Assembly (NCBI GenBank): GCA_024683455.1
Contig: JAIKYE010000036.1
Location: 1-64,000 of the forward strand
Source: Bacteroidaceae bacterium
GTDB taxonomy: Bacteria; Bacteroidota; Bacteroidia; Bacteroidales; Bacteroidaceae
DNA length: 64,000 bases
Reading direction: 5' to 3'
Under the pieces are notes generated by a model, which did no database searches, was not told where the DNA came from, and saw nothing but the letters and a program-made list of their open reading frames with translations. The position numbers and the translations under genes were made by a program. Numbering within the stretch: the first letter of the stretch is position 1; each line of letters begins with the position of its first letter. This document shows, one piece after another, positions 1,818-33,942 of this stretch.

Positions 1818-3836
1818 ATGAAAAAGATACTTATCATCGCTTTGCTGGCACTTGTCACATTGGCTGGGCAAGCAAAAGAGAAAACAGTTGTGTGGGAGAA
1901 TTCCACCACAGAACATGAAAGTAATAATGGAAACGAACAGCTTTTCCCTTCATACTGGAGCGATGACAAGGGCGACTGGAAGATAGCCTTCTTTGAGGAT
2001 TGTGCCATCTACGACTGCCAGTTTTGGAACTATAAGCAGAAGCAACAAAATGGTGACAAGTACACCTTTGTCTTGGAAAACAACGGCAAGGAAGTTACGG
2101 TTAGCGTAGGCAAGAACAAGAAAGGTGCCCGTCCTATGAAGATTGGCAACCAAAAGGTGGTGTACAGCATGATAACAAGTCGCTACTTGGCAGATTATCC
2201 TACAAAGGATACGCGCACAGGATTTGTGGATACAAACTACAAGGCTGATTCTGTAACCTTTGTGGGTTGGATAAAGGATATACCTGAGAAGAACAAAAAA
2301 GAGAAGACTTTTGAACTCGGATATAAGAACATCTTCACAGATGAAGAGGAAACTATCCTCGGCGATTTGGATGAGCAGGGACGATTCAGCATTAAGTTCC
2401 CTCTCCTGAACAGTACAGAAATTTTCTGCGACTGGGATTTTTTCCAAGTTCATACTATGCTGGAGCCGGGCAAGACATACTTCCTGCTTTATGACTTCAA
2501 GGAAGGTCGTCGTTACTTTATGGGCGACGACTGTCGCTTGCAGAACGAACTGTTCAAGTATCCGTTGGATTGGAAATCAATCGACATGGAGAATGGGGAC
2601 TCTGATTTCGACAGATACATAGCTACAACCGATAGTTTTATAAAAGCACAGAACGCAAAGATTGACCAGCTGTGTACAGAACACCCTACCCTCTCCACAC
2701 GCTTCAATCTGTATAGAAAAAGTAACACACTTTGGATACAGGCTTTCGCTTTCTACAAAGCACGCTTTAGATGCAAAGACAATCAGTTTCCAGAAAACGC
2801 TCGTAATTATGCATACAATACGTTCTGGATAAAAATAGAAAAGCCCTACACGCTACATTACTATCTTAATTTCTTCCTACAAAAATACCTTGGTAATGAG
2901 ATGAAACAGCGCAGCTATACTTTCAGTATGGATTATTTGGATCATCTGACAGAAATAGCAGCTAACGATGAGGAACTAGACCTATTGATGCGCTGGAAGG
3001 CTTTTTTTGAAAAGACCAATGCCCGCTGTAATGCAGCCTCCACAGAAGAAGAGAGGATACGAATTGCAGAGGAAGAAAATACGAAGAATGCCGATCTTAT
3101 AAAAAAAGCAGAAGAAATACTCAATGGTCCAAGAGCAGAAAAAATATTTGACGGGTATGCGCTTTTATCCGAAATGAGAGACCAGGAGCACAAACTGGAT
3201 TCGCTGGGAGCCGATCCGTCCCTCAAGAGCCTCTGGATTTCTCAGCAAGTTAGTGAAGAGATAGACTACGACCGCACGTCATTGCTCCCCGAAATATTGG
3301 ACACGCTAAAGGCAATGATAAACAATCCTATTGTCATTGAGATGATTGAAAAGAAAAACAACCACTATCTGGCCATAGAAAACCGTGAGTTTGACAAGTT
3401 TGCGCTAAAATCTTCCGACAATCTCAAAGATATCTCTGATGGCGAAGCGCTGCTGAAAAAGATTGTTGAGCCCTACAAGGGGAAGTTCGTCCTTCTGGAT
3501 GTTTGGGGCACATGGTGCGGCCCTTGTAAGGAGGCCCTGTCAGATAGTCAGGAGGAATATGAGCGACTGAAGGACTATGACATAGCATATCTGTATCTTG
3601 CCAACAAAAGCCCGAAGGAGCTTTGGGAGAAGATTATTAAAGAATACAATGTTACTGGTGACAATGTTGCGCACTACAACCTGCCCAAGGAACAGCAACA
3701 GGCCATCGAACGCTATCTAAATATCCATTCATGGCCCAGCTACAAACTCTTCGACCGCAACGGCAATCTGCTTGACTTGGAAGTAGATGCACGCGAAATC
3801 GACGACCTGATTCACCTATTGGATAAATTGAAATAA
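1818..3836 (+). CDS. TlpA-like thioredoxin-fold exported protein
   Basis: Signal peptide nearly identical to upstream gene; LLDVWGTWCGPCKEAL motif near C-terminus. Confidence 0.85.
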   Translation: MKKILIIALLALVTLAGQAKEKTVVWENSTTEHESNNGNEQLFPSYWSDDKGDWKIAFFEDCAIYDCQFWNYKQKQQNGDKYTFVLENNGKEVTVSVGKNKKGARPMKIGNQKVVYSMITSRYLADYPTKDTRTGFVDTNYKADSVTFVGWIKDIPEKNKKEKTFELGYKNIFTDEEETILGDLDEQGRFSIKFPLLNSTEIFCDWDFFQVHTMLEPGKTYFLLYDFKEGRRYFMGDDCRLQNELFKYPLDWKSIDMENGDSDFDRYIATTDSFIKAQNAKIDQLCTEHPTLSTRFNLYRKSNTLWIQAFAFYKARFRCKDNQFPENARNYAYNTFWIKIEKPYTLHYYLNFFLQKYLGNEMKQRSYTFSMDYLDHLTEIAANDEELDLLMRWKAFFEKTNARCNAASTEEERIRIAEEENTKNADLIKKAEEILNGPRAEKIFDGYALLSEMRDQEHKLDSLGADPSLKSLWISQQVSEEIDYDRTSLLPEILDTLKAMINNPIVIEMIEKKNNHYLAIENREFDKFALKSSDNLKDISDGEALLKKIVEPYKGKFVLLDVWGTWCGPCKEALSDSQEEYERLKDYDIAYLYLANKSPKELWEKIIKEYNVTGDNVAHYNLPKEQQQAIERYLNIHSWPSYKLFDRNGNLLDLEVDAREIDDLIHLLDKLK

Positions 3837-3892
3837 TAATATGATTACACACGAGTGGTAATTTAGTTAGTTTAAGGTTAAAAAGAAAAACG

Positions 3893-3926
3893 AGAGCCTC
3901 TGCGTTGCGAAACGCGGGGGCTTTTT
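3893..3926 (+). terminator. Rho-independent-type hairpin
   Basis: agcctctgcgttgcgaaacgcgggggct followed by ttttt. Confidence 0.6.
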
Positions 3927-3982
3927 ACATCTTTTTGAGGCAAAAGAATGAAGAAATATTGAAAATTGGCGAAGATATCTGT

Positions 3983-3990
3983 ATCTTTGC
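3983..3990 (+). promoter_or_regulatory. Bacteroidetes -7 box (TAnnTTTG) upstream of exonuclease III
   Basis: tatctttgc, about 24 nt before the ATG at 4014. Confidence 0.5.
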
Positions 3991-4013
3991 AAAAAATATA
4001 TTGCTTTAGATAT

Positions 4014-4763
4014 ATGAAATTCATTAGCTGGAATGTGAACGGCCTGAGAGCTGTTGTAGGTAAGAACTTCAAGGAAGTGTTTGAAGAGTTGGATGCCGAC
4101 TTCTTCTGTCTGCAGGAAACAAAGATGCAGGAGGGACAACTGGACCTTCAGTTCCCTGGGTATCAGTCGTACTGGAACTATGCCGAGAAGAAAGGATACT
4201 CTGGTACAGCCGTCTTTACCAAGCATCAGCCCCTGAACGTTACCTACGGCATCGGCATAGCCGAACACGATACAGAGGGACGTGTGATAACGCTGGAGAT
4301 GCAGGACTTCTATCTGGTTTGCGTCTATACGCCCAACAGTCAGGACGGGCTGAAGCGCCTTGACTATCGCATGAAGTGGGAAGATGATTTCCGTGCCTAT
4401 CTGCTGGCGCTGGATGCCAAGAAACCCGTGATTGTTTGCGGCGATATGAATGTGGCACATCAGGAGATAGACTTGAAGAATCCCAAGACCAACCACATGA
4501 ATGCAGGCTTTACCGATGAGGAGCGCGAGAAATTTACCCAGCTCCTTGCAGCCGGCTTTACTGATACGTGGCGCACGATGAATCCTGATGTCAAGGATGT
4601 TTATTCATGGTGGAGCTATCGCTTCCAGGCACGTGCCAAGAATACGGGGTGGCGTATCGACTACTGGCTGGTCAGCAATCGTCTCTTCCCTCAGGTCACC
4701 AACACCAAGATTCATACAGAAATCTTAGGCTCTGACCACTGCCCCGTGGAGATGGACTTATAA
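4014..4763 (+). CDS. xth: Exodeoxyribonuclease III
   Basis: MKFISWNVNGLRAVVGK...CLQETKMQ...GDMNVAHQEIDL...GSDHCPVEM; start moved from 3966 to 4014. Confidence 0.93.
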   Translation: MKFISWNVNGLRAVVGKNFKEVFEELDADFFCLQETKMQEGQLDLQFPGYQSYWNYAEKKGYSGTAVFTKHQPLNVTYGIGIAEHDTEGRVITLEMQDFYLVCVYTPNSQDGLKRLDYRMKWEDDFRAYLLALDAKKPVIVCGDMNVAHQEIDLKNPKTNHMNAGFTDEEREKFTQLLAAGFTDTWRTMNPDVKDVYSWWSYRFQARAKNTGWRIDYWLVSNRLFPQVTNTKIHTEILGSDHCPVEMDL

Positions 4764-5222
4764 GCTGATGCTTTCTATACGGAGTTTGATGGTCCCTACG
4801 GGAACCTTTACCTCCACAACATCACCCACCTGTTTCTTTAGCAAAGCCTGAGCTATGGGTGACTTGATGGAAATCTTTCCCTCGGGCAAGTTGGCCTCGT
4901 GCGGACTGACTACGGTGTAAGTCATCTTGGTATTATTTCCCAAATTGGTCAGCTCTACTTTACTAAGCAGACCTACCCCATCGCCTCCGAGTTTTGACTT
5001 ATCTATGACACGGGCAAACTCCAACACACGCTGCTTAAAACGGATACGGCTCAACAAGCGGCCTTGCTCACGCTTAGCTGCATGATACTCGAAGTTCTCG
5101 CTTAGGTCGCCCTTATCTCTGGCCTCAGCGATTGCCTCCTTCACTCTGGGCAATTCTACGCGCTCCAACTGGCGCAATTCCTCTACGAGCTTGTCGTAGC
5201 CTTCTTGTGACATATATTCCAT
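4758..5222 (-). CDS. greA: Transcription elongation factor GreA
   Basis: MEYMSQEGYDKLVEELRQLE...ARDKGDLSENFEYHAAKREQG...SPIAQALLKKQVGD. Confidence 0.95.
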   Translation of the reverse strand: MEYMSQEGYDKLVEELRQLERVELPRVKEAIAEARDKGDLSENFEYHAAKREQGRLLSRIRFKQRVLEFARVIDKSKLGGDGVGLLSKVELTNLGNNTKMTYTVVSPHEANLPEGKISIKSPIAQALLKKQVGDVVEVKVPVGTIKLRIESISL

Positions 5223-5374
5223 GCCGCGAAGTTACAATTATTTTCTGGAGGGGACAAAGGAAATGTCAGTTTTTGTCATTGGGGAAGTGACATTTTGTCT
5301 TGCAGCTCTTTTTGGCACGGCTTTCGTTGTATTAACAACAGAGAAAAATAAACATAAATAAAATAACAACGATT

Positions 5375-5647
5375 ATGAACGTAAAACCATTAGCAGACCG
5401 CGTGCTCATTGAGCCCGCACCCGCAGAGACAAAGACAGTAGGTGGTATCATCATTCCTGATACAGCAAAGGAGAAGCCCCTAAAGGGTACCATTGTTGCC
5501 GTTGGTAACGGAACAAAGGATGAGGAGATGGTGCTGAAAGTTGGCGACCAGGTTCTTTATGGCAAGTATGCCGGTACAGAACTGGAGTTCGAAGGCACTA
5601 AGTACCTGATTATGCGTCAGAGTGACGTAGTGGCAATCCTGGGATAA
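5375..5647 (+). CDS. groES: Co-chaperonin GroES
   Basis: [35 protein letters not shown]...GTIVAVGNG. Confidence 0.97.
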
Positions 5648-5765
5648 AAGCCCCTTCCACCTCCCCCAAAGGAGGAGTGAATTATTCAATAATAATAAAT
5701 AACAAATACCGAAAAGTGAGGGCGGAAGCAAATTCTTCATTCTTCACTCTTCACTCTTAATTTAA

Positions 5766-7415
<1,650 letters not shown>

Positions 7416-18012: not shown

Positions 18013-18786
18013 TCAGGCCAGATGATGACTCTCTGCAATGGATATTGCTTCCGTTATTGACTTTGCTCCAAGCTTCTTGAAGATATTCTTCTTATGCGTC
18101 TTTATGGTGTTAATACTTTTGCATAGCGCTGTCGCTATCTCCGTTGATGTCTGTCCTTTTCTGGCGCGCAACAGTATCTTTTGTTCTATCTCGGACAGTC
18201 GTATTTTTTTCGTTTCATTCCTCAATGTCCCTGTTGCGAGGTCGTACTCATAGGTTTTTCCAGAATCCATAATAATCAGGCACTCCGTCTTTTTCCTCGA
18301 GGAAGGGGAAAACTGAAAAGCGCCGATTCTTATTTCACCTTTTGAATTCACCACCAGTGGGATAAACTTCTGATTGATATAGGACTCCTTCTTGTTTACT
18401 ATGATAGGATAATCTGCCGAAATAACGTGTGATTCACGATGTTGCCTGAAAAAGAAAGCGCTATCCTTGATATAGCTGTCTTTCACCTTCAATAGCGAAC
18501 CTGCCACGTCCTTATGGATGAGTGACCAATACACTACCTTACAAGGGCGCTGTATGTCAGCCTCGGTGAATTCGTTCAACGATGAAAGCGTACTTGTCCG
18601 ATACAGTATTTTTCTTTTCTCAACGTCCATAATGAAACATGTGTCTTTTTTGCCAGTAATGTAGCTAGCAAGAACTGTCAGAATCACATTCCGCAATGCG
18701 TCATCAATAGAACCGTCTATACGTAGTGGAGAACAGAGAGAACAGATATCTTCCTCTTCCTGTTGATTATTTTTTTTGTGTGCCAT
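18013..18786 (-). CDS. LuxR-type HTH regulator with N-terminal sensor-like region
   Basis: C-terminal LSEIEQKILLRARKGQTSTEIATALCKSINTIKTHKKNIFKKLGAKSITEAI. Confidence 0.85.
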   Translation of the reverse strand: MAHKKNNQQEEEDICSLCSPLRIDGSIDDALRNVILTVLASYITGKKDTCFIMDVEKRKILYRTSTLSSLNEFTEADIQRPCKVVYWSLIHKDVAGSLLKVKDSYIKDSAFFFRQHRESHVISADYPIIVNKKESYINQKFIPLVVNSKGEIRIGAFQFSPSSRKKTECLIIMDSGKTYEYDLATGTLRNETKKIRLSEIEQKILLRARKGQTSTEIATALCKSINTIKTHKKNIFKKLGAKSITEAISIAESHHLA

Positions 18787-18813
18787 CTAATGCGTGTTTT
18801 TTCTAATGCAGTA

Positions 18814-18821
18814 CAAAGTTA
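18814..18821 (-). promoter_or_regulatory. -7 box (TAacTTTG on minus) for LuxR-type gene
   Basis: caaagtta on + strand 28 nt upstream of start codon. Confidence 0.45.
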
Positions 18822-19030
18822 CAGAATCTTCTGAGAATAATCAATATTTTTGCCATAAATATTTAAAACAGCGTCAAACACTCACCCAAAAGGGTTACCC
18901 TTGTCCTCACACCAAAGGGTGATTTTTAAGTATTTGTAAAATTTTCTCCTAAAAACATTTGGGAGAGACGTTAAAATCTCCCTAAATTGGCAGTCGCAAT
19001 TCCTAAAAACGAGTACAAACACACTATCCT

Positions 19031-20506
19031 ATGCGATATAAAAGCATTGCCGTTTTTGCATATTCAATGATGGTTGGTTTACTGTCTGTTTCTCCTGCAG
19101 AGATAGTCTCTCTTAATGACGCCATTAACAAATATGTATATAATACCATATACGTAAGGACAAAACGCTTGGCCTTACAAAACAGCATATTAGAATATGA
19201 GAATTTCAAGAAGAGTTTCCTTCCTGCCTTCTCACTCAATCTGACACCCGTATCGTTTAATCACTCCATGCGCCTGCTTCAGAATTACAATACGGGAGAA
19301 TATTCAAATGTAGAGGAGTTTTCTAACACGACATCCGGAGGAATAAGCATATCTCAGAAGATTTCGGCAACTGGAGGTATTTTCACGGTAGGAAGCAGTC
19401 TAAGTTTCCTGCATGAGTTCACATGCAAGAATAATGGATTCAGCACCTCTCCCGTGTATCTCTCCTATTCCCAGTCATTATTCGGAGGAGGTAAGAACAT
19501 ATCTTTTGAGAGAGCTATATCCAAATTACAAAATGATGTAGCGTTGAAAGATTTCTGCACGTCTGTATCAACGGAGCAACAAAGGATTTTAGGACTATAT
19601 CTGAATGCTTATTCCAACAAAGTAGATATAGACTTTTACTCCAAGGCAACCTGCATGGGTGACTCGCTTCTTATGTATGCTAAGATACGTAAGGACGCAG
19701 GAAAAATAACAGAATACGAATACAATCTGGTGGAAATGCAACAACTCGATAATAAAATCGAACTGGAGAAGTCACAATATGCTTATGCATCTTCCATCCG
19801 ATTGCTGGAGAAAGAGTTACTTGTCCATGATATTGAACTAAAGACATTATCATCAACAAACTTTCCAACACGTATAGAGGAATCTGACGTAATAAGACTT
19901 GTGAATCAGAACAATCCTACCTATCAGAGTCTGGAGTTGGAACGTCTCAATGCAGAATACAGGTTGCACCAGAAGAAAACAGATAACCGATTTAATGCCA
20001 ACATCTCATTAAGCTATGGTCTCAACCAGTATGCCAATACTTTTAAAGATGCTTACCAGCACCCAGACCAGCGGCAATCAGCCTCTGTCACTCTGAGTAT
20101 TCCTGTGTTTCAGTGGGGAATTAATCGCAACAAACTGAAGATTGCCAAAAATCAATACGAGATGGCACTTCAGGAACAGGAATATGCCGTTTCCAATTTC
20201 AAGGAGGAAATTCATAATTATGTTATAGACTACAACATGAACAAAGGGCTTACAGACGCAGCAGAGAAAAAGTATAACCTGTCTGCCCAACAGTACTCTT
20301 TTGCGACTTTAAGATTCAACACGGGAAAGATTGCTGCCATAGAGCTTTCTAATGCCCACAAAGACTACTTACAAGCTAAGCAATATTACATTTCAGTAAT
20401 GAGAAGCCTGTTCGAGAGTTACTACAGAATCCGCCACCTCTCTCTCCATGATTTTGTAGAAGGCAGGGATTTGCTGGACATTGTTCAAACATCAATCAAG
20501 AAATGA
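19031..20506 (+). CDS. TolC-family outer membrane efflux protein
   Basis: Coiled-coil architecture (QNSILEYENFKKSFLPAFSLNLTP; FATLRFNTGKIAAIELSNAHKDYLQAKQYYISV); first gene of an exporter operon. Confidence 0.8.
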   Translation: MRYKSIAVFAYSMMVGLLSVSPAEIVSLNDAINKYVYNTIYVRTKRLALQNSILEYENFKKSFLPAFSLNLTPVSFNHSMRLLQNYNTGEYSNVEEFSNTTSGGISISQKISATGGIFTVGSSLSFLHEFTCKNNGFSTSPVYLSYSQSLFGGGKNISFERAISKLQNDVALKDFCTSVSTEQQRILGLYLNAYSNKVDIDFYSKATCMGDSLLMYAKIRKDAGKITEYEYNLVEMQQLDNKIELEKSQYAYASSIRLLEKELLVHDIELKTLSSTNFPTRIEESDVIRLVNQNNPTYQSLELERLNAEYRLHQKKTDNRFNANISLSYGLNQYANTFKDAYQHPDQRQSASVTLSIPVFQWGINRNKLKIAKNQYEMALQEQEYAVSNFKEEIHNYVIDYNMNKGLTDAAEKKYNLSAQQYSFATLRFNTGKIAAIELSNAHKDYLQAKQYYISVMRSLFESYYRIRHLSLHDFVEGRDLLDIVQTSIKK

Positions 20507-21828
20507 AAAAGAAAGACGACATAAAAGTTCAGGACAAAGCCTTGGAGCAAATTACAGACAAACGTTCCGAGGAAGTTGCCGACATCATAGACCGCATGCC
20601 TACAGGCTGGACCAGACTTGTGGTAGCCATCATCATGGTAATCGTTGTTACAATGGTGACATTAGGATGTATCATTAAATATCCCGATACTGTAACTGGT
20701 CAGATATCCATCACGGGAGAGGTTGCTCCTGTACGCTTGATCTCTTCCGCGTTAGGGCGTCTTCATTTGCTTGTAGAAAACAATACAGAGGTGAAGAAAG
20801 GGACTTGCTTAGGTTATATAGAATCTGGTGCAGTCTATGAGGATATACTCAGGCTGGATAGTCTTTGCAATGTGATGCCGGATTCTGATACCCAAATAGT
20901 TTTTCCTGACAATCTGGAGCTGGGAGTATTAAGCGCCTATTACAATGACTTCGTCTTATCTTATATTAAGTTTAACCAATTACGTGAGACCAAGGTGTAT
21001 GACAACATGAGAAGGACGCTGCGAAACCAGCAATTGTCAAACAGCCATGTTTCTGAGAATCTGAAAAGGGAGATTGATCTTAACAGCGAGGTGTTGGCAA
21101 ATATGCACAGGCAATACGCCTCGGACAGCATCCTGCATAAATTAGGAGCTATCAGCGATGAGGTTCTGTCACAGCAGTACAATAGTCTGCTTTCGTGTAA
21201 ACGCTCAGACATAGAACTCAAAAGTACAGAACTGATAAAACAGTCTGAGATAAAGTCCATCGACATCGAGTTGGCAAAGGTAGATGTAACAGTCAGAGAA
21301 GAAATGGTTTCTACGTACAATACGATGCTTGCCAAGTTCAATGTACTCGTTAACCAAATACGTCAGTGGAAGGAACAATACCTCTTTATTTCACCAATAA
21401 ACGGACTACTACAGTATCAGAGTTTCTGGAGAGACAATGTGTTTCTGAGCAGTACTACCGAGGTTTTCTCCATCTCCCCTGCCAAGAACAGGATGATAGG
21501 GGAGCTACTCATCCCCGCTAGCGGAGCCGGCAAGGTCAAGGTAGGGCAGGATGTCAACGTCAAACTGACAGATTATCCCTCTAATGAATATGGGTATATT
21601 CGTGGAAAGGTTGAGATGCTTTCCTCCCTGACTCATAATATGCAGACGCCAGAAGGAAATGTAAAAGCCTATCTCGTAACGGTTTCATTCCCAGACGGAA
21701 TAAAAACCAACTTCGGCAAACAACTCCGTCTAAACTTCGAGTCCGCTGGTACAGGTGAAATTATCACCGCAAAGCGTCGTTTGATACACCGTTTATTTGA
21801 TAACCTGAAAGCAAAGGAAACCAAATGA
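20503..21828 (+). CDS. HlyD-family periplasmic adaptor (membrane fusion protein)
   Basis: Single N-terminal TM; VTGQISITGEVAPVRLISSALGRL..LVENNTEVKKGTCLGYIE; ATGA overlap with upstream gene. Confidence 0.85.
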   Translation: MKKKDDIKVQDKALEQITDKRSEEVADIIDRMPTGWTRLVVAIIMVIVVTMVTLGCIIKYPDTVTGQISITGEVAPVRLISSALGRLHLLVENNTEVKKGTCLGYIESGAVYEDILRLDSLCNVMPDSDTQIVFPDNLELGVLSAYYNDFVLSYIKFNQLRETKVYDNMRRTLRNQQLSNSHVSENLKREIDLNSEVLANMHRQYASDSILHKLGAISDEVLSQQYNSLLSCKRSDIELKSTELIKQSEIKSIDIELAKVDVTVREEMVSTYNTMLAKFNVLVNQIRQWKEQYLFISPINGLLQYQSFWRDNVFLSSTTEVFSISPAKNRMIGELLIPASGAGKVKVGQDVNVKLTDYPSNEYGYIRGKVEMLSSLTHNMQTPEGNVKAYLVTVSFPDGIKTNFGKQLRLNFESAGTGEIITAKRRLIHRLFDNLKAKETK

Positions 21829-24017
21829 TACTACATAGATTCCCCACAGAATACCAGATGGATGCCAAGGACTGCGGTCCCGCATCGCTGAAGATGATTG
21901 CAAAATACTTTGGCCGATATTACTCCTTGCAGTATTTGCGAGACAAATGCGGCATTACTAAGGAAGGCGTCTCTCTACTTGGTATCAGCGCTGCTGCCGA
22001 GTCTATAGGGCTCCACACTGCCGCCTTCAAATGCACAATAGACGATGTGATAATGAAGGTTCCCTTCCCTGCTATCATATATTGGAACGAGAATCATTTT
22101 GTTGTAGTCTATCATGCCAACAAAAAACATATCTGGGTCTCAGACCCCTGCAAAGGTCACGTGAAATACACAAAGCGTGAATTTATGGAAGGCTGGTACC
22201 TCAAGAACGAAGACAAAGGTGTCCTGCTCGCTCTAGAGCCCACAGCAGACTTCAAGCTCTCCAAGCAGGAGAAGAGGCAGGAGAAGGACAGCATGATTAG
22301 CATGCTTCGCTACTTCATGCCCTATAAAAAGGAGTTCTCGCTCATATTCTTCGTGATGCTCGTAGCTACTCTCCTGCAGGGAATTCTGCCGTTTATCTCC
22401 AAATCTGTGATAGATATTGGTATCAGTACTTCTGATGTGAATTTCATCAACATGGTATTAGCAGGCAATATTTGCATTCTATTAAGCATCATGGTATTCA
22501 GTGTTGTCAGGGATTGGATTCTGATGCATATTACGGCACGTGTAAACATCGCATTGATATCTGACTACCTTATAAAACTGATGAAGCTGCCGGTAACCTT
22601 CTTCGAGAATAAACTGTTGGGCGACATTCTCCAGCGTGCAGCCGATCACGAGCGTATTCGTTCGTTCATCATGAACAATTCTTTGTCTTTAATATTCTCG
22701 ACGTTCACTTTCCTCCTGTTCTCCATAATATTGCTAGTATATAACCACGTTATCTTTTTCATTTTCTTAGGTGGTTCAATCTTGTATGTTACATGGGTGA
22801 TGCTATTCCTGAGCATCCGCAAGAAGCTGGACTGGCAATATTTTGAGCTGATATCCAAGAACCAGAGTTATTGGGTGGAAACGGTATCTGCCATCCAGGA
22901 CATCAAGATTTACAATTATGAGCGTGCGCGCCGTTGGAAGTGGGAGGAGATACAGGCACGGCTATATCATGTGAACAAACGAGTCCTGACGGTTACCAAC
23001 ATGCAGAATCTAGGAGCCCAGTTTATAGAGAGCATTAAGAACATGGCTATTACTTTCTATTGTGCTACCGCCGTTATAAATGGAGATATTACCTTTGGAG
23101 TGATGATTTCTACACAGTTTATTATAGGTATGCTGAACGGACCGCTCATTCAGTTCATTAACTTTGTGGTATCGGCTCAGTATGCCAAGATATCATTCCT
23201 GCGTATGAATGAAATCAGGCAGTTGGAGGATGAGGACGAACTGTTGTCCGTTGGCTCAACAACCATATTGCCAGAGAACAAGAGTCTGATACTGAAGAAT
23301 GTCATGTTCCAGTATGCGGCACACTTACCTTTGGTGCTTATGAGTATAAACCTGCGTATTCCAGAGAACAAGATCACGGCTATAGTGGGAAGCAGCGGCT
23401 GCGGAAAGTCAACTCTCTTGAAACTGCTTATCCGTCTTTATAAGCCAACGCATGGCACGGTAAGTATGGGGAGCATGAATGTTACGGCAATAAATCTCAG
23501 AAAATGGCGCGAGATGTGTGGTGTAGTAATGCAGGATGGCAAAATGTTCAGCGATACCATCAAGAATAACATTGTGCTTGGCGATGAGAGAGTGGACGAA
23601 GCTCAGCTAATAAAATGCTGTGAAATAGCACAAATAAAGGATGAAATAGACCATATGCCTCGTGGCTTTGATACCGTAATTGGCGAACAGGGACGCGGAC
23701 TTAGCGGAGGACAGAAACAACGTTTGCTTATTGCCCGAGCCCTATACAGAAACCCCCAATATCTATTCTTGGACGAAGCAACCAACGCCCTTGATACCGT
23801 CAACGAGCAGAAGATAGTAAAAGCTCTGAACTCCGCTTTTGAAAACAGAACGGTTGTTATCGTTGCCCATCGTCTAAGTACCATCCGTCATGCAGACCAA
23901 ATTGTTGTAATGAACAAAGGTCAGATTGTGGAAATAGGTAATCATGAGTTTTTAATGGGAATAAAAGGGTGTTATTACAACTTGGTCTCAAGTCAGAATG
24001 AAGAGTTAGTACACTAA
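21825..24017 (+). CDS. Peptidase-containing (C39) bacteriocin-type ABC exporter
   Basis: N-terminal C39 motif DAKDCGPASLKMIAKYFGRYYS and HFVVVYHANKKHIWVSDPCKG; TM domain; Walker A GSSGCGKST; signature GRGLSGGQKQR; Walker B LFLDEA. Confidence 0.95.
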   Translation: MILHRFPTEYQMDAKDCGPASLKMIAKYFGRYYSLQYLRDKCGITKEGVSLLGISAAAESIGLHTAAFKCTIDDVIMKVPFPAIIYWNENHFVVVYHANKKHIWVSDPCKGHVKYTKREFMEGWYLKNEDKGVLLALEPTADFKLSKQEKRQEKDSMISMLRYFMPYKKEFSLIFFVMLVATLLQGILPFISKSVIDIGISTSDVNFINMVLAGNICILLSIMVFSVVRDWILMHITARVNIALISDYLIKLMKLPVTFFENKLLGDILQRAADHERIRSFIMNNSLSLIFSTFTFLLFSIILLVYNHVIFFIFLGGSILYVTWVMLFLSIRKKLDWQYFELISKNQSYWVETVSAIQDIKIYNYERARRWKWEEIQARLYHVNKRVLTVTNMQNLGAQFIESIKNMAITFYCATAVINGDITFGVMISTQFIIGMLNGPLIQFINFVVSAQYAKISFLRMNEIRQLEDEDELLSVGSTTILPENKSLILKNVMFQYAAHLPLVLMSINLRIPENKITAIVGSSGCGKSTLLKLLIRLYKPTHGTVSMGSMNVTAINLRKWREMCGVVMQDGKMFSDTIKNNIVLGDERVDEAQLIKCCEIAQIKDEIDHMPRGFDTVIGEQGRGLSGGQKQRLLIARALYRNPQYLFLDEATNALDTVNEQKIVKALNSAFENRTVVIVAHRLSTIRHADQIVVMNKGQIVEIGNHEFLMGIKGCYYNLVSSQNEELVH

Positions 24018-24055
24018 TATTAATAGATATAGACAATTTTTAAAATTACAAAAAA

Positions 24056-24766
24056 ATGTCACAAAATATTTTGAATTTAACTACAGCCAAAGAAGAGCTA
24101 TCCTTTATATCCAGATACCTTATGCTAAATGGAAGTTTTACGCGTAATTTAGGACTGATGAACGGGAAGATGGGATTTGTGTTATTCTTTTATCACTATG
24201 CAAAATATTCCAAAAATAAACTTTATCGGAGATTCGCCAAGGAATTGTTGATGGAGATTTACAATGAAATCGACAATACATATCCCTGCAATTTCAGCGA
24301 CGGCTTGTGTGGAATAGCCTGGAGCATGACCTACCTTATCCGTAATGGATTTGTTTCTTCTGACGATGAACAAAACTTACTAAGCGACTTGGATGCAAAA
24401 ATCATGAAATGGAATATTCGACTGCTTTATGATACTAGCCTTGAGACTGGGATTCTTGGCTTAGGGCACTATATTCTTAGCCGATATAATCCTAAAGAAA
24501 GAAAGTTCTATTTACCCCTAGATTACCTGCAAAAATATTTCAAAGTTGCCCAGCAGAATAATCTCCATGAAATTAACCAAATCATGTTCGAAATAGAAAG
24601 TGGGCAACTTACTCATAAAGATTATTTCAACATTTTTTTTCTTTATGGCTCATTTAAAAGAAATATTGCGGGTTCAAAAAGTCAAGGAAGTGTCCTTGTC
24701 AATGGTGAAGCTGGCAGAGGGTTGAAAATTATGCTTGGAGGAGATATTGCCACAGAAAAACAATAA
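24056..24766 (+). CDS. Short LanC-like protein
   Basis: GLMNGKMGFVLFFYHYAKYSKNKLYRRFAKELL; FSDGLCGIAWSMTYLIRNGF; terminal NGEAGRGLKIML; resembles LanC-like repeat motifs but short (236 aa). Confidence 0.65.
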   Translation: MSQNILNLTTAKEELSFISRYLMLNGSFTRNLGLMNGKMGFVLFFYHYAKYSKNKLYRRFAKELLMEIYNEIDNTYPCNFSDGLCGIAWSMTYLIRNGFVSSDDEQNLLSDLDAKIMKWNIRLLYDTSLETGILGLGHYILSRYNPKERKFYLPLDYLQKYFKVAQQNNLHEINQIMFEIESGQLTHKDYFNIFFLYGSFKRNIAGSKSQGSVLVNGEAGRGLKIMLGGDIATEKQ

Positions 24767-24798
24767 AAAGGAAACAATAATTGATAGTATCGAAAATA

Positions 24799-26040
24799 AT
24801 GAAAAGGACAAAAGTATATATTTTCAACAGCCTCTGCCGCGGTTCGCTCTATGGTATAGGAACATATATACGTGAGCTTCAATCAACTCTGGATAAGGCC
24901 AAAATAGAATATGGCATTATATATATATATGGTACGGGAAAATTCGTTACCACCTCAGATGAGGCCGGCCACATAACAATAAACATACCAAAGGCGCAAT
25001 ATCTGAACAAAAATGGTTCCAAATACTATGCTCGTAACATCTCTTTTCTTCTGCGAGAATTCATTCAGGAGGAAAAGGATGTAGACCTTATATTTCATCT
25101 TAATTTCATGGGAGAACCCAACCTTGTTGCTGCTTTAAAAAAAGAATTTCCCAAAAGTAAAATTGTTCTCGTCGCACATTACACAAATTGGAGTTTCAAT
25201 CTTAAAGGAGATGAAGGTCAGTTAGGAAGAATCTTAAGAAAACCAGCAAAGTATAGAAGTGAACAAGAGCAGAACCTTTGTAAGGCATTCAAAGCAGACT
25301 TAAAAATGATAAGAAAAGTTGATCGTTTTATATGTGTTGCCCAACATACGCTCAGAACTTATCAGAAATATGGTACTATAGATACAGACAAATGTGTCGT
25401 CATTAACAATGCTTTGACAGACAGTTTTCACCACTTAGAAGATCAAGAAAAAAATGCCATCCGCGAAAAATATTACATAAGTTCCGAAGAGCAGGTCCTC
25501 CTTTATGCTGGAAGATTGGATCCAGACAAAGGTGTGGGGGCTTTGATTCAAGCATTTGGGATATTGAAAAAAAACTATCCTTGGCTTCATCTGTACCTCT
25601 TGGGAGAAGGCGACTATAATCATTGGCTGAGAATAGCTGAAGGGAATTGGTCGCAGATTACATTTACAGGAAAATTAGATAAGGAAAAAGTCCAGGACTT
25701 TTATGATATCGCAAATATAGGCGTTGTATGTTCGCTACATGAAGCATTCGGCTTGACCGCTGTAGAAATGATGATGAACCAATTGCCAATCGTAGTAAGT
25801 GACGCCGGTGGGCTAGATGAAATCGTTGAAGATGAAATTTCTGGACTCAAAGTACACGTTGAAAAAAGTGAAGATAAACGTAGTATAAGTCCTCAAAGTT
25901 TAGCATCACAAATTAGCCGTTTATTAGATGACATGTCACTCTCCCGGCGAATTGCCGAAGGTGCACGTAAAAGATTTCTTGAGAATTATGAGATTACAGA
26001 TTACTCTACCAAAATGGTAGAACTTTATCAAACAATATAA
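24799..26040 (+). CDS. Glycosyltransferase family 4-like protein
   Basis: GIGTYIRELQ; LLYAGRLDPDKGVGALIQAFGIL; VCSLHEAFGLTAVEMMMNQLPIVVSDAGGLDEIV; start set at internal ATG. Confidence 0.88.
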   Translation: MKRTKVYIFNSLCRGSLYGIGTYIRELQSTLDKAKIEYGIIYIYGTGKFVTTSDEAGHITINIPKAQYLNKNGSKYYARNISFLLREFIQEEKDVDLIFHLNFMGEPNLVAALKKEFPKSKIVLVAHYTNWSFNLKGDEGQLGRILRKPAKYRSEQEQNLCKAFKADLKMIRKVDRFICVAQHTLRTYQKYGTIDTDKCVVINNALTDSFHHLEDQEKNAIREKYYISSEEQVLLYAGRLDPDKGVGALIQAFGILKKNYPWLHLYLLGEGDYNHWLRIAEGNWSQITFTGKLDKEKVQDFYDIANIGVVCSLHEAFGLTAVEMMMNQLPIVVSDAGGLDEIVEDEISGLKVHVEKSEDKRSISPQSLASQISRLLDDMSLSRRIAEGARKRFLENYEITDYSTKMVELYQTI

Positions 26041-26052
26041 AACTACAAAAAA

Positions 26053-27063
26053 ATGAAAAAGCTAAGAAAAATGGAGCTGGCAAACAAGTGCAGTTTGCTG
26101 CAACTTACCAGTGAATTACCACTCTTGGATGTTTTAGACCAAGCTGTCATAATTGGCGGCGGAGACGGTTCGGTAACAAACCCATATTCAGAATCTGAAG
26201 CTGATAGCATGATTGATGCGGGTACATTTACTGGTGGATACGTGCAGGATGCGGATGGCACCGTTTGTTACTGGCTGGGAGTTGTTACCGTTCTTGGTAC
26301 AAGTAGTAATTATGATGACTATACACCAGGCGGATATTTTGATGATCCATTAGCTCCATATTTTATCTTACCCATAGGTGGTGTATATGGCTATGCGAGC
26401 CAATGGGGCAACCAAGATCAAGGTCAGAATTATTATGGCCAGGATAATTATGGTCAGGATAATTATGGCCAGGATAATTATGGCCAGGATAATTATGGCC
26501 AGGATAACTCTGGTCAGGGTAATTATGGCCAGGGTAATTATGGCCAGGGTAACTCTGATCAGGGTAATGTCGTCAATTTCGTGAATATGAACAATCCGGG
26601 AGGGTATGATAACGTGATGAATTCCTGGTTGAGCACATTGAATACAGGAGTTTCTACAGGTGCTGGCAACACTCGTCTCGGCACTAACTTTAAACTGTAT
26701 TTTGAAACAAAAACCGGAAGAGTTTTCTATGGCAATCAATATGTTGGGACAACATCTTTGCAAGGTTTGTCAAAAATCGTAGGTCGTACCTTGGGGCCAG
26801 CTAATTGTGCTGCTTCTGTGTATAACATTTGTAACACCTATCAAAATGAAGGAGGACATGCGGCAGCAGTGACGGCTGGTGAAGAAGCAGGATCTGCAGC
26901 CTTGTCAATATTGCTTGCAAAAGCTGGAGCAGCAGTTGGTTCCGTATGCGGTCCTGCGGGTACTCTTGTTGGCGGAATCCTGGGTGCCATTGGAGGCTCT
27001 TTGTTGGGCGAATATGGAGGTGGCTATCTTGTAGAGATTACACTTGATGGTCTTGATTATTAG
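26053..27063 (+). CDS. Putative GG-leader exported peptide/bacteriocin-like precursor with GQDNY repeats
   Basis: Leader-like MKKLRKMELANKCSLLQLTSELPLLDVLDQAVIIGG|GDGS; tandem GQDNY/GQGNY; C-terminal GAAVGSVCGPAGTLVGGILGAIGGSLLGEYGGG; adjacent to C39 ABC exporter. Confidence 0.75.
   Translation: MKKLRKMELANKCSLLQLTSELPLLDVLDQAVIIGGGDGSVTNPYSESEADSMIDAGTFTGGYVQDADGTVCYWLGVVTVLGTSSNYDDYTPGGYFDDPLAPYFILPIGGVYGYASQWGNQDQGQNYYGQDNYGQDNYGQDNYGQDNYGQDNSGQGNYGQGNYGQGNSDQGNVVNFVNMNNPGGYDNVMNSWLSTLNTGVSTGAGNTRLGTNFKLYFETKTGRVFYGNQYVGTTSLQGLSKIVGRTLGPANCAASVYNICNTYQNEGGHAAAVTAGEEAGSAALSILLAKAGAAVGSVCGPAGTLVGGILGAIGGSLLGEYGGGYLVEITLDGLDY
26422..26571 (+). repeat. 15-nt in-frame tandem repeat (ggycaggrtaattat; GQ[D/G]N[Y/S])
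   Basis: Ten consecutive 15-nt units read directly: GQNYY, 4x GQDNY, GQDNS, 2x GQGNY, GQGNS, DQGNV. Confidence 0.95.
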
Positions 27064-27460
27064 TGTCCCGTTTAAATGGGAACAAGTAAAATGTTAACAG
27101 AATAGCTCAGGAAAGAGCAATTAAGTTCATTGAAATCGTTGAATTTGGTTTTATCGAGCAGATTGTTCATATGAATTTTGTTCGCAAGTGATATACTGTG
27201 AATTACATAAGTTGAGCTATCCAATTTTATATCATGATGGGCAATAACAACGATGCAACTGGTTTTGATGGTGACTGCAACATGGACATAGACGGCATTC
27301 TTTGCAATAGTCAAGATCTTCCTAATCTTAAGATGACGTCTTTTGCCTTCTGAAGAATTGTATTGTTAATCTTTTTTTCTTGTTAATTATTAGCTTTAAG
27401 GGCTGAGAGATGCTAGGCATTGGTGAGAAAAGTGAATTAATATTCCTTTTCTCATCATGC
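27062..27460 (-). pseudogene. Degenerate IS4-family-like transposase C-terminal fragment
   Basis: Minus-strand conceptual translation with frameshift and stop: FLTNA*HLSALKLIINKKKRLTIQFFRRQKT(fs)HLKIRKILTIAKNAVYVHVAV...IVVIAHHDIKLDSSTYVIHSISLANKIHMNNLLDKTKFND, matching the RWQIELFFKWIKQHLKIKxFxGTxxNAVxxQ type motif recalled from IS4 transposases. Confidence 0.75.
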
Positions 27461-28087
27461 TTGCGAACAAGATAATTTAAGTGCTTACAGCTCTTACGAC
27501 CAACCAGCTAAGAGAAAACGTATTAAACTTGATTCATTGCAACCTACATAATTAGTTTACAAAGGCGCATACCTAAAACCGCTGGTTTTCAATAAGCTCA
27601 TAGAAGGCTGTAATTTGATTGTTTCAAAGACCGATTAGCCCAATCTAACAGAATAGCGATGATTTCCGATATACATCTATAATGAAGCAAGTTCGAAAAA
27701 AATCGCAATAAATAGTATGTCTGCTGTTTGGTGAACAGGCGCGACAAGACTGCAACATCGTTCTCCAACGCATCAAACTTTTTGTTTGAAACCACATATA
27801 AGAAATGGTGTAGAACGTCTTAAGATTGTGTTCTTTTCTGAGAGCATAAGACTGTAGTATACAAAGTCGCGTAATAGTTTCATGGTGAGCACAACCCCTT
27901 ACTTTGACAAGTTCAAATTTTGGTAGTAACGACTACTCTCCATGCTAAATGTGTATTTTGTAAGCATTGTAAAAAAAACTTGCAAAAAACGTATAAATAA
28001 AAGAAAACATTTCGTAGATTTGTCTTGCTGTACAACTAAAATTTATCGACAATATTAATATTCTATCAAATTTTACAATATAAAATC

Positions 28088-28630
28088 ATGTTGAGTTTTG
28101 TTGAATTTTGGAACAGAATTTACTATTCTATCTATAGTATTTATGTCTTCGTTGATAGGAATATTTGTGGGAAAGCTATAGAATTTCTTATTTGCAGGCC
28201 ATTATATAAGTTGGACTTTACGAAGAAAAGGTTGAAGAAATACGGGATGGACACCTATGAAAAATGGGTTGATATGATTAACGATACAACGGGTAATCCA
28301 TCTTCCCCGTTTTGTCTGTATTTCTGCAGCTCAGCAATGGCCTTAGTAACATTAGGCCCTATATTGCTTTGCGCCAATATTCTGGTAATCTTCTGTGGAG
28401 AACCTATACATTCCATCATAGTTGGACATTATGGGGCGTTTTTTGCTATATTGTGCTTTATAGAATTTCTGTTTTTATATTTTATTCTATGGAAAAATGA
28501 TTGTTACCTTAGATATTTTGCAGAATTCCAGAAAGAAGGTCGCAAAAAACGAATCATATGGGGTCTTGGGGTCTTATTTTACAGTATATGTATTACAATT
28601 GCATGGTTCAGAACTTTATTATTGACATAG
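28088..28630 (+). CDS. Small integral membrane protein, candidate immunity protein
   Basis: About three hydrophobic segments (MALVTLGPILLCANILVIFC; FFAILCFIEFLFLYFIL; IIWGLGVLFYSICITIAWF); position downstream of the putative bacteriocin. Confidence 0.55.
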   Translation: MLSFVEFWNRIYYSIYSIYVFVDRNICGKAIEFLICRPLYKLDFTKKRLKKYGMDTYEKWVDMINDTTGNPSSPFCLYFCSSAMALVTLGPILLCANILVIFCGEPIHSIIVGHYGAFFAILCFIEFLFLYFILWKNDCYLRYFAEFQKEGRKKRIIWGLGVLFYSICITIAWFRTLLLT

Positions 28631-28664
28631 TTGAATATTATGCCCGAATACGGCACTAAATGAT

Positions 28665-29591
28665 ATGGAGAAAGTAATTTTAAAATCTTCTACGCCTATA
28701 GATTACGTAATACCATTCGTAGATTGTAGCGATGAGAACTGGCTTGTGGAGTATAAGAAGCATGTTTCAGGGCCAAGCGGATGGAGCAACAACGCCACTC
28801 GCTTCCGCGACTGGGAGACACTCCGCTATCAACTGCGCAGCATAGAACGTTATATGCCATGGATAAGGAACATATATTTAGTGATGTCTATCTCTGAAAC
28901 ACAAATCCCCAAATGGCTTAACACAGAGCATGAACGTGTACACATTGTATGGGACTGGGAGATTGTGCCGCGTGAATATTTGCCTATCTTTAACTCTAAC
29001 GTCATAGACCTGTATATTCCATGCATAGAGGGATTGAGTGAACGATACCTATATGCCTGTGATGACTATATAGTTATGAGGGAACAGAAACCTGAGAATT
29101 TTTTTACGAAGGATGGGATTAGATTGCGAGTGGGGCTATGCTTATTCGGAAGCGATACCTATGCACAGACCATCTACAACTCTGACAAACTAATATGTCC
29201 CCAATATGTCATCGAAAGGAAAGATGGTTATTATCTTCTGCCCTACTGTAATCACGCCGTAGTACCGCACCTAAAGACTGAGAACCAGATTGCGCTAATA
29301 GAATATAAGACAGAGATAGAAACCTCTCTTTCCAGATTCAGGGAAGGCAAAAACCTGACATGGATTATCTATCCGCTATGCCTAATGAAGAAAGGATTAC
29401 TGCAAAAGGGTAATGTCGTTACAAACTACAATGCACTCATTGATGAAAACAGTATCCGAAATCTGAACTTCAAAGATTGTGATGTGATTGTCCTCAATGA
29501 TGAGTATCAAGATGATTTTGAAAAGGGAAAGGCGATGCTAATAAACCGCTTGGAAGAAGTTTTGCCGGGTAAATCAGAATTCGAGAAGTAA
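28665..29591 (+). CDS. Stealth-type sugar-phosphate transferase (capsular polysaccharide phosphotransferase family)
   Basis: IDYVIPFVDCSDENWLVEYKK; RFRDWETLRYQLRSIERYMPWIRNIYLV; HERVHIVWDWEIVPREYLPIFNSNVIDLYIPCIEGLSERYLYACDDYIV. Confidence 0.8.
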   Translation: MEKVILKSSTPIDYVIPFVDCSDENWLVEYKKHVSGPSGWSNNATRFRDWETLRYQLRSIERYMPWIRNIYLVMSISETQIPKWLNTEHERVHIVWDWEIVPREYLPIFNSNVIDLYIPCIEGLSERYLYACDDYIVMREQKPENFFTKDGIRLRVGLCLFGSDTYAQTIYNSDKLICPQYVIERKDGYYLLPYCNHAVVPHLKTENQIALIEYKTEIETSLSRFREGKNLTWIIYPLCLMKKGLLQKGNVVTNYNALIDENSIRNLNFKDCDVIVLNDEYQDDFEKGKAMLINRLEEVLPGKSEFEK

Positions 29592-32691: not shown

Positions 32692-33942
32692 TTATTCAAA
32701 CGCTCCCATACGCAGCATGTTCACTTCCTGCTCTGTGAGGTAACGCCAGTCACCACGACGAACATTCTTCTTGGTAAGACCGGCAAAGAATACGCGGTCC
32801 AACTTGATAACCTTATAACCAAGGCTCTCGAAGATACGACGAACAATACGGTTACGTCCACTGTGAATCTCGATACCTACCTGCTTGCGGTCGGTCTCGC
32901 TGGCATATTCAATAGCGTCTGCGTGGATCTCACCATCCTCCAACTGAATACCGTCTGCAATCATACGCATATCGGCAGCTGTGACATTCTTATTGAGATA
33001 TACGTGGTAAATCTTCTTCTTCATGTACTGAGGATGTGTCAGCTTGCTTGCCAATTCACCATCGTTGGTAAGCAGAAGCACACCTGTAGTGTTGCGGTCG
33101 AGACGACCTACAGGATAGATACGCTCGCGACAAGCACCCTTTACCAAGTCCATAACAGTCTTGCGGTTCTGTGGGTCATCACTGGTGGTAACATAATCCT
33201 TGGGCTTGTTGAGAAGGATATAAACCTTCTTCTCTATACTAACCAACTGATCGTGGAACAACACAGAATCAGAACGCTTAATCTTAGTACCCAATTCGGT
33301 TACAACCTGACCGTTTACCTTTACTACACCTGCCTCGATGAAGCTATCTGCCTCACGACGACTGCATACACCGGCATTAGCCAGGAACTTGTTCAGACGG
33401 ATTGGTTCATCGGGATCTACATGAGTCTCCTTGTACTCAATCTGCTTCTTCATGCTATACTTAGCATTGGGGTTGTAACCTGCTGTACGAGGACGACGGT
33501 TGAAACCACCACCCTGCTGACGGGGCTGATAGCCACCACGGTTATAACCACCTGTACGGGGGCGCTGCTGATAACCGCCTTCACCACCTGCATTGTAACG
33601 GGGACGGGGCTGATAGCCACCCTCGCCACCTGCATTATAGCGGGGACGGGGCTGATAACCACCCTCGCGAGGCTGACGGGGCTGATAACCGCCTTCGGCA
33701 TTGTAGCGGGGACGGGGCTGATAACCACCCTCACGTGACTGATAGGGACGACTGGTCTGTCCCTCAGAGTTACTACTAAACGCAGGACGGCTTATACGCG
33801 GACGCATAACACGACCCTGACTGCTATATCTAGGGGTACGATTGTTTTCACTTCCATACTGCTGAGGGCGGTAGCCATCGCGGCCTTCACTCTCATTTCT
33901 CTCAGAGAATTTTTCTCTCCAGCTTTCGTCTTCTGTAATCAT
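32692..33942 (-). CDS. rRNA pseudouridine synthase (RluB/RsuA type) with Arg/Gly/Tyr-rich N-terminal extension
   Basis: IRLNKFLANAGVCSRREAD; YPVGRLDRNTTGVLLLTNDGELA; N-terminal GGYQPRPRYNA repeats. Confidence 0.9.
   Translation of the reverse strand: MITEDESWREKFSERNESEGRDGYRPQQYGSENNRTPRYSSQGRVMRPRISRPAFSSNSEGQTSRPYQSREGGYQPRPRYNAEGGYQPRQPREGGYQPRPRYNAGGEGGYQPRPRYNAGGEGGYQQRPRTGGYNRGGYQPRQQGGGFNRRPRTAGYNPNAKYSMKKQIEYKETHVDPDEPIRLNKFLANAGVCSRREADSFIEAGVVKVNGQVVTELGTKIKRSDSVLFHDQLVSIEKKVYILLNKPKDYVTTSDDPQNRKTVMDLVKGACRERIYPVGRLDRNTTGVLLLTNDGELASKLTHPQYMKKKIYHVYLNKNVTAADMRMIADGIQLEDGEIHADAIEYASETDRKQVGIEIHSGRNRIVRRIFESLGYKVIKLDRVFFAGLTKKNVRRGDWRYLTEQEVNMLRMGAFE
33528..33738 (-). repeat. Coding tandem repeats in RluB-type N-terminal extension
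   Basis: Repeated GGYQPRPRYNAGGE units on minus strand. Confidence 0.85.

Follow-up and report, generated by a model that had tools for sequence, protein, structure and literature searches.

A Bacteroidales locus predicted to encode a double-glycine-leader polymorphic toxin, its type I exporter and a candidate immunity protein

We analysed 64,000 nucleotides of contig JAIKYE010000036.1 from a Bacteroidaceae genome (83% complete, 107 contigs; this whole stretch is referred to as the window) and, within it, the locus at 18013-29591, where a 336-aa protein with a double-glycine (GG) leader is encoded beside a C39-type ATP-binding cassette (ABC) exporter. The locus very probably encodes a type I-secreted polymorphic toxin and its immunity protein. 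With rather less confidence, although we still consider it probable, it represents a distinct class of Bacteroidales polymorphic toxins, in which delivery relies on a GG leader, a short NPYT/GGYV domain and a dedicated C39 exporter clade, the toxin/immunity cassettes are common to Rhs and type VI secretion system (T6SS) proteins, and the effectors are large and enzymatic or membrane-active. The evidence consists of gene content, module homology, synteny of the immunity family, the exporter clade and N-/C-terminal modularity; killing, cleavage and glycosylation are predicted activities. An original prediction, made from the DNA alone, had proposed that a GG-leader product, antibacterial or adhesive, leaves the cell by a type I-like system; the sequence analysis supports this mode of export and a probably antibacterial role. 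The product is better described as a modular toxin, its C-terminal domain being common to Rhs and T6SS effectors, than as a peptide or bacteriocin precursor, and an adhesive role was not supported.

One relative in a family sample, a 348-aa protein of Phocaeicola massiliensis (L080 among the loci fetched for comparison), matched residues 202-326 of the 336-aa protein and not its leader end. Residues 13-165 of this relative matched NCBIfam NF053698, the Bfe1 family of T6SS effectors (82 bits, below the full-length cut-off), and its neighbours included genes for TssD (69 bits), a gp25-like protein (48 bits), a weakly TssF-like protein and ClpB-like AAA proteins. When a two-sequence alignment of the window and P. 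massiliensis modules was scanned against 84,980 species, seven loci matched, six of which were the C-termini of Rhs proteins from Chryseobacterium, Apibacter, a Weeksellaceae bin, Epilithonimonas and Flavobacterium (six genomes), with a TIGR03696 Rhs core (44-79 bits) in the upstream parts. Module copies have in common the motif (N)xKLYFxTxxGRVFYGNQYVxTxSL, with a glycine-zipper tail after it. The presence of a single C-terminal module on Rhs, Bfe1-type T6SS and GG-leader proteins is the defining trait of a polymorphic toxin. Homologues without an adjacent exporter, which the original prediction had named as evidence against itself, do exist, but for the swappable toxin module only, and such homologues are what a polymorphic toxin predicts. 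The window protein resembles the Bfe1-family effector in this module and in the related membrane protein encoded downstream in P. massiliensis; it differs in lacking both a Bfe1-type N-terminus and T6SS genes beside it. No T6SS genes or T6SS N-terminus were found among the scanned locus proteins, the window genome as a whole not having been checked for T6SS or type IX secretion system (T9SS) genes.

The locus also encodes a 180-aa membrane protein (28088-28630) that had initially been left unexplained. We compared it with 204 open reading frames (ORFs) of 100-260 aa from the fetched loci, and the best five non-self scores belonged to L076 (145), L079 (99), L080 and its duplicate L047 (83), and a copy in L078 (78), with the next ORF at 53. 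The homologues in L076, L079 and L080 lie directly 3' of the toxin module, and the L078 copy lies right behind another Rhs protein that bears it. A hidden Markov model (HMM) of the family additionally found L125 4741-5253 (58 bits, E 9e-18; outside the HMM training set), directly behind an Rhs-type module copy. Overall, the family occurs behind the module in L076, L079, L080, L081 and L125, and 1 kb away from it in the window. Its homology with proteins encoded directly behind the module in Rhs and T6SS loci makes the 180-aa protein the likely cognate immunity protein; AlphaFold modelled it as all-helical (predicted local distance difference test, pLDDT, 59). A different small membrane-protein family, probably an alternative immunity family, stands behind other module copies (L075 3554-4087, L077 2428-2973, L078 9054-9590, L126 3930-4517 and L127 5215-5760), as would be expected if immunity families differed between module subtypes. 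Neither the toxin nor the immunity family of the window matched any family in the Pfam and NCBIfam copies searched.

The GG pair occupies residues 35-36 of the 336-aa protein, a predicted GG-leader substrate encoded within the exporter operon. The leader, the repeat array and the glycine-zipper tail described in the original prediction were all seen, and the C-terminus was enriched in GxxxG motifs (10 against a shuffle mean of 5.5, P 0.02; tail zipper P 0.007). Against Pfam the protein gave only a sub-threshold Pentapeptide_2 match, to the repeats, and no NCBIfam precursor family matched it. No other GG ORF was found in the locus and no small GG peptide within 9 kb on the same strand, and the product is far longer than the small peptides (< ~120 aa) of class II microcins and bacteroidetocins. 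Viral contigs yielded no relative of the protein, and the toxin module was unmatched on plasmids. The only matches among PDB sequences, to a tape-measure stretch (E 0.004) and, weakly, to a channel (E 0.065), were attributed to composition and set aside, as were PHROG tail and tape-measure matches.

The Q/N/G/Y repeats and glycine zipper could also be taken for an amyloid-like surface fibre, making the product a secreted adhesin or biofilm protein, and the Cdz proteins of Caulobacter do aggregate via glycine zippers (PMC5380434). We rejected this reading, which we regard as most improbable, on module homology: the zipper region lies within the module carried by Rhs and T6SS proteins that have a matching downstream membrane protein, and other effectors of the class bear CHAP or JAB domains instead.

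The exporter provides a further line of evidence for a toxin-delivery system. In a tree of 32 C39 exporters, the window exporter and eleven others (63-83% identity) formed a clade with good support (98/97), from which nineteen at 35-45% identity stood apart. Clade loci carry large GG proteins of 165-460 aa with varied C-termini (Toxin-JAB1, CHAP, DUF6973 and HExxH-type) and adjacent exported proteins, many of the effectors having a small exported protein directly behind them; loci of sister exporters have GG peptides of < 110 aa. L101, the closest relative, is of the same genus, has an exporter 82.5% identical to that of the window and encodes a GG protein with a Toxin-JAB1 domain above cut-off. 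Elsewhere we found CHAP in L063 (42 bits), DUF6973 in L105 (76 bits), a CHAP-like domain in L104, and HExxH motifs in L061, L102 and L117. Exporters of the window clade were also present in G569 (74% over a fragment) and G575 (63%), genomes of other families that have such effectors. The window genome itself contains a second C39/HlyD/TolC locus, L070 (G000:C46:40000-56691), whose exporter (39% identity) sits on a long branch of unsure placement; at 2345-3169 (-) it encodes a 274-aa GG protein with a metallopeptidase-like HELGH domain at its end, which is probably another large effector, paired with an exporter that has diverged strongly.

Exchange of C-termini is apparent in L117 (G569:C42, from a genome of another family), where GG effector cassettes are arranged in tandem at 3109-7233. 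Two of the effectors are near-identical over their first ~120 aa (300 nt of the DNA are identical), beyond which identity drops to 23-50%, and the exported proteins behind them have also diverged; the combination of the same ~120 aa with divergent C-termini and downstream proteins is the signature of a polymorphic toxin. A third cassette has the first ~120 nt in common and then switches to the window-type VGGGDGSAGNPYT...GGYV (NPYT) domain. More generally, NPYS/GG N-termini were joined to unrelated C-termini.

By an automated GG rule, GG proteins of >= 150 aa lay near 6 of 12 clade exporters and 1 of 20 others (Fisher one-sided ~0.006, calculated by hand), and GG peptides of < 150 aa near 1 of 12 and 10 of 20, respectively, in favour of the locus being a type I-secreted toxin with its immunity protein. 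Several observations weigh against that reading. The association is inflated, as several clade loci were fetched via a match to the 336-aa protein itself, and the rule missed the clade members L062, L063, L105, L106, L107 and L108. For L101 and L105-L108 the adaptor was the only query used, and four of these (L101, L105, L107 and L108) bear large effector-like proteins, those of L105 and L108 without a leader GG pair. The NPYT/GGYV domain occurs without a GG leader in L069 8914-9545, L073 1-482 and L074 9748-10557, and is thus not strictly tied to the exporter. The AlphaFold model of the toxin module was poor (pLDDT 46), which leaves pore formation to be argued from the sequence. Finally, a 1-kb non-coding gap separates the immunity candidate from the toxin, and pairs elsewhere abut directly.

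The leaderless NPYT proteins, together with the delivery of the same module elsewhere by Rhs and Bfe1-type proteins, would fit a genuine toxin and immunity protein in which the 336-aa protein leaves the cell by T6SS, T9SS or lysis and the C39 exporter serves another substrate. We consider this route very unlikely given the GG leader, the position in the operon, the association with the exporter clade and the lack of another GG ORF in the locus. As separate observations, the L069, L073 and L074 proteins begin MTK...APKGT..NPYT, two of them have hydrolase-like C-termini (one C39_2-like, the other amidase-like by eye), and the L069 protein is seemingly split over two overlapping ORFs.

The original prediction had described the operon as tightly packed, which holds up to the 336-aa gene and not beyond it, where the gap (27064-28087) begins. 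The gap is low in GC (0.34), had no repeat elsewhere in the genome when searched for, and is possibly the remains of a lost gene. A low-GC, single-copy gap between toxin and immunity genes might point to a decaying island, once functional and now partly inactive, but none of the nine ORFs is disrupted, not even across the slippage-prone repeat array, and we give this little credence.

The LanC-like and GT4 glycosyltransferase genes raise the question of modification. The LanC-like gene did match LANC_like, in line with its earlier naming, but the match stops after position 133 of the 350-position profile and the C-terminal zinc-binding half is missing, which makes a cyclase role unlikely; a lanthipeptide reading was therefore rejected. 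The gene is paired with GT4 in most related loci, and glycosyltransferases of the GT2, GT4, Core-2/I-branching, galactosyltransferase-type and DUF4422 families recur near such effectors; GT4/LanC-like gene pairs also occur near small GG peptides and are therefore not specific to the large-effector class. LanC-like segments were also seen inside very long ORFs, at L107 3709-7722 (1337 aa, beside a C39 exporter locus) and L045 2692-10245 (2517 aa). The locus could alternatively encode a ribosomally synthesised and post-translationally modified peptide (RiPP) or glycopeptide of the GG-Bacteroidales type; the 336-aa protein would then be an oversized precursor, with the LanC-like protein and GT4 as its modifying enzymes and a small product left by trimming. 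TIGR04157-type GT4 and short LanC-like genes do stand beside small GG peptides in sister loci, and RiPP surveys file such clusters under radical SAM (rSAM)+LanC(+GlyS) (PMC10352776). This is nevertheless very improbable: the 336-aa protein matched no precursor family, its C-terminus is a ~140-aa module in common with Rhs and T6SS proteins rather than a core peptide, and the LanC-like protein lacks its zinc-binding half, C-CH motifs being reported absent from Bacteroidales LanC-like proteins in PMC10352776 as well. No radical SAM protein was recognised near the 336-aa gene, as had been noted originally; there was no hit among the ten proteins scanned, the other neighbouring ORFs not having been scanned with HMMs.

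Based on these data, we propose that the operon is controlled by the LuxR-type regulator and that the C39 domain would recognise the GG leader of the toxin and cleave after Gly36, the remainder being threaded out through the ABC/HlyD/TolC channel; the intact catalytic residues, the leader and the synteny argue for cleavage and export. The NPYS...GGYV domain, the part most often common to related effectors, may together with the repeat linker display the toxin on the producer surface or dock it on targets, which is the least secure step. The C-terminal module, drawn from the pool of Rhs and T6SS toxins, would enter target membranes via its glycine-zipper helices and probably depolarise them, and the multi-helix membrane protein would shield the producer by neutralising it. 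GT4, and perhaps the Stealth protein, may glycosylate the effector with the LanC-like protein as a helper.

Polymorphic toxin systems (CdiA, Rhs, T6SS effectors and TANFOR toxins, the last linked to T9SS; PMC3482391, PMC7073777) have a constant N-terminus, an exchangeable C-terminal toxin and an adjacent immunity gene, and the C-terminal module of the window protein is the one found on Rhs and Bfe1-type T6SS proteins, with the same immunity family, but its delivery part consists of a GG leader plus an NPYS...GGYV domain of ~40 aa, and its exporter is of the C39 type I kind. In the main text of the 2012 polymorphic-toxin survey, as far as it was available, double-glycine leaders and type I secretion go unmentioned. 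Cdz of Caulobacter (PMC5380434) is likewise a type I-exported bacteriocin with a leader, a glycine zipper and an inner-membrane immunity protein; CdzC/D are described as two-peptide proteins of 84-86 aa without a modular toxin domain. Class II microcins and bacteroidetocins (see PMC6671954, PMC10233263) also combine a GG leader, a C39 ABC exporter, an HlyD-type adaptor and a small immunity protein, but are small peptides, cf. the ~300-aa multidomain relative of Rhs/T6SS toxins in the window. The GG-Bacteroidales rSAM/LanC/glycosyltransferase RiPP clusters (PMC10352776) have a glycosyltransferase, a short LanC-like protein and a peptidase-containing ABC exporter (PCAT), but make a peptide and not a large toxin, and no radical SAM gene was recognised here. 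An archaeal review describes a C39 locus with many GG-leader proteins, called bacteriocin-like or quorum sensing. We found no description of GG/C39-delivered polymorphic toxins in Bacteroidota in the openly licensed literature; the parts, polymorphic toxins and C39 type I export, are known, and no earlier description of their combination was found.

If correct, this reading makes GG-leader type I secretion a further route by which polymorphic toxins are delivered, and means that a machine best known for small peptides exports large modular effectors. It would also explain the Bacteroidales C39 exporter clade found beside "oversized" GG proteins, which RiPP miners may treat as odd precursors. 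The combination of a GG leader with NPY[ST]...GGYV offers a sequence handle for toxin-immunity pairs in gut genomes, and raises the question of how a type I-released protein enters other Gram-negative cells.

Every ORF of the original prediction was present at its coordinates and strand (Table 1), and the ATGA overlaps of TolC/HlyD (20503-20506) and HlyD/ABC (21825-21828) are real. HMM searches of each protein bore out the LuxR, TolC, HlyD, C39-ABC, GT4 and Stealth identities, and matched LANC_like in part. The exporter keeps the C39 catalytic residues Q11, C17, H and D, as read from its sequence, and combines the C39 domain, a transmembrane domain (TMD) and a nucleotide-binding domain (NBD) with HlyD and TolC partners, as in type I secretion by a PCAT. 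GT4 scored 387 bits against TIGR04157, just below the cut-off of 400.

Table 1. Features of the 18013-29591 locus, in window positions.
Feature	Position	Strand	Evidence
LuxR-type regulator (GerE helix-turn-helix), divergent	18013..18786	-	Pfam GerE/LuxR 46.8 bits
TolC-family outer-membrane channel	19031..20506	+	Pfam OEP 90 bits
HlyD-type periplasmic adaptor	20503..21828	+	TIGR01843 71 bits; single transmembrane helix 40-58
PCAT	21825..24017	+	Pfam Peptidase_C39 120 bits, ABC_membrane, ABC_tran
C39 domain of exporter	21840-22196	+	followed by TMD and NBD
Short LanC-like protein	24056..24766	+	LANC_like 27.3 bits (cut-off 23.2), profile 4-133 of 350 only
GT4 glycosyltransferase, TIGR04157-like	24781..26040	+	Pfam Glycos_transf_1 104 bits
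GG protein (336 aa)	26053..27063	+	ORF; parts in the next four rows
GG leader, 36 codons, VIIGG|G at residues 32-37	26053..26160	+	sequence; aligns with leaders of L061, L062, L065
Conserved N-terminal domain GGxGSxxNPYSxxExxxMIxxGTFxGGYV	26161..26277	+	common to other effector-like proteins
15-nt tandem array coding Q/N/G/Y linker	26425..26568	+	Tandem Repeats Finder (TRF), 8-9 copies, 89-91%
C-terminal toxin module NFKLYFxTxxGRVFYGNQYVxTxSL, then glycine-zipper tail	26590..27063	+	homology to Rhs and Bfe1-type T6SS C-termini
Candidate immunity membrane protein (180 aa), 3-4 hydrophobic helices	28088..28630	+	homology to proteins directly behind the toxin module elsewhere
Stealth-family (CR2) protein	28665..29591	+	Pfam Stealth_CR2 117 bits

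The TolC-family channel was 65% identical to its counterpart in L100 and 46% to that in L101, and a homologue of the LuxR-type regulator (36%) adjoins L070. The Stealth protein would be an accessory, and its membership in the system is uncertain. GC content was 0.36 for the LanC-like gene, 0.37 for GT4 and 0.34 for the membrane-protein gene, compared with 0.48-0.50 in the flanks, and this AT-rich cassette is consistent with an acquired island. Elsewhere in the window, the product of 32692-33942 (-) looks by eye like a pseudouridine synthase, extended at its N-terminus by a long repeat region rich in R/G/Y/Q (REGGYQPRPRYNA...).

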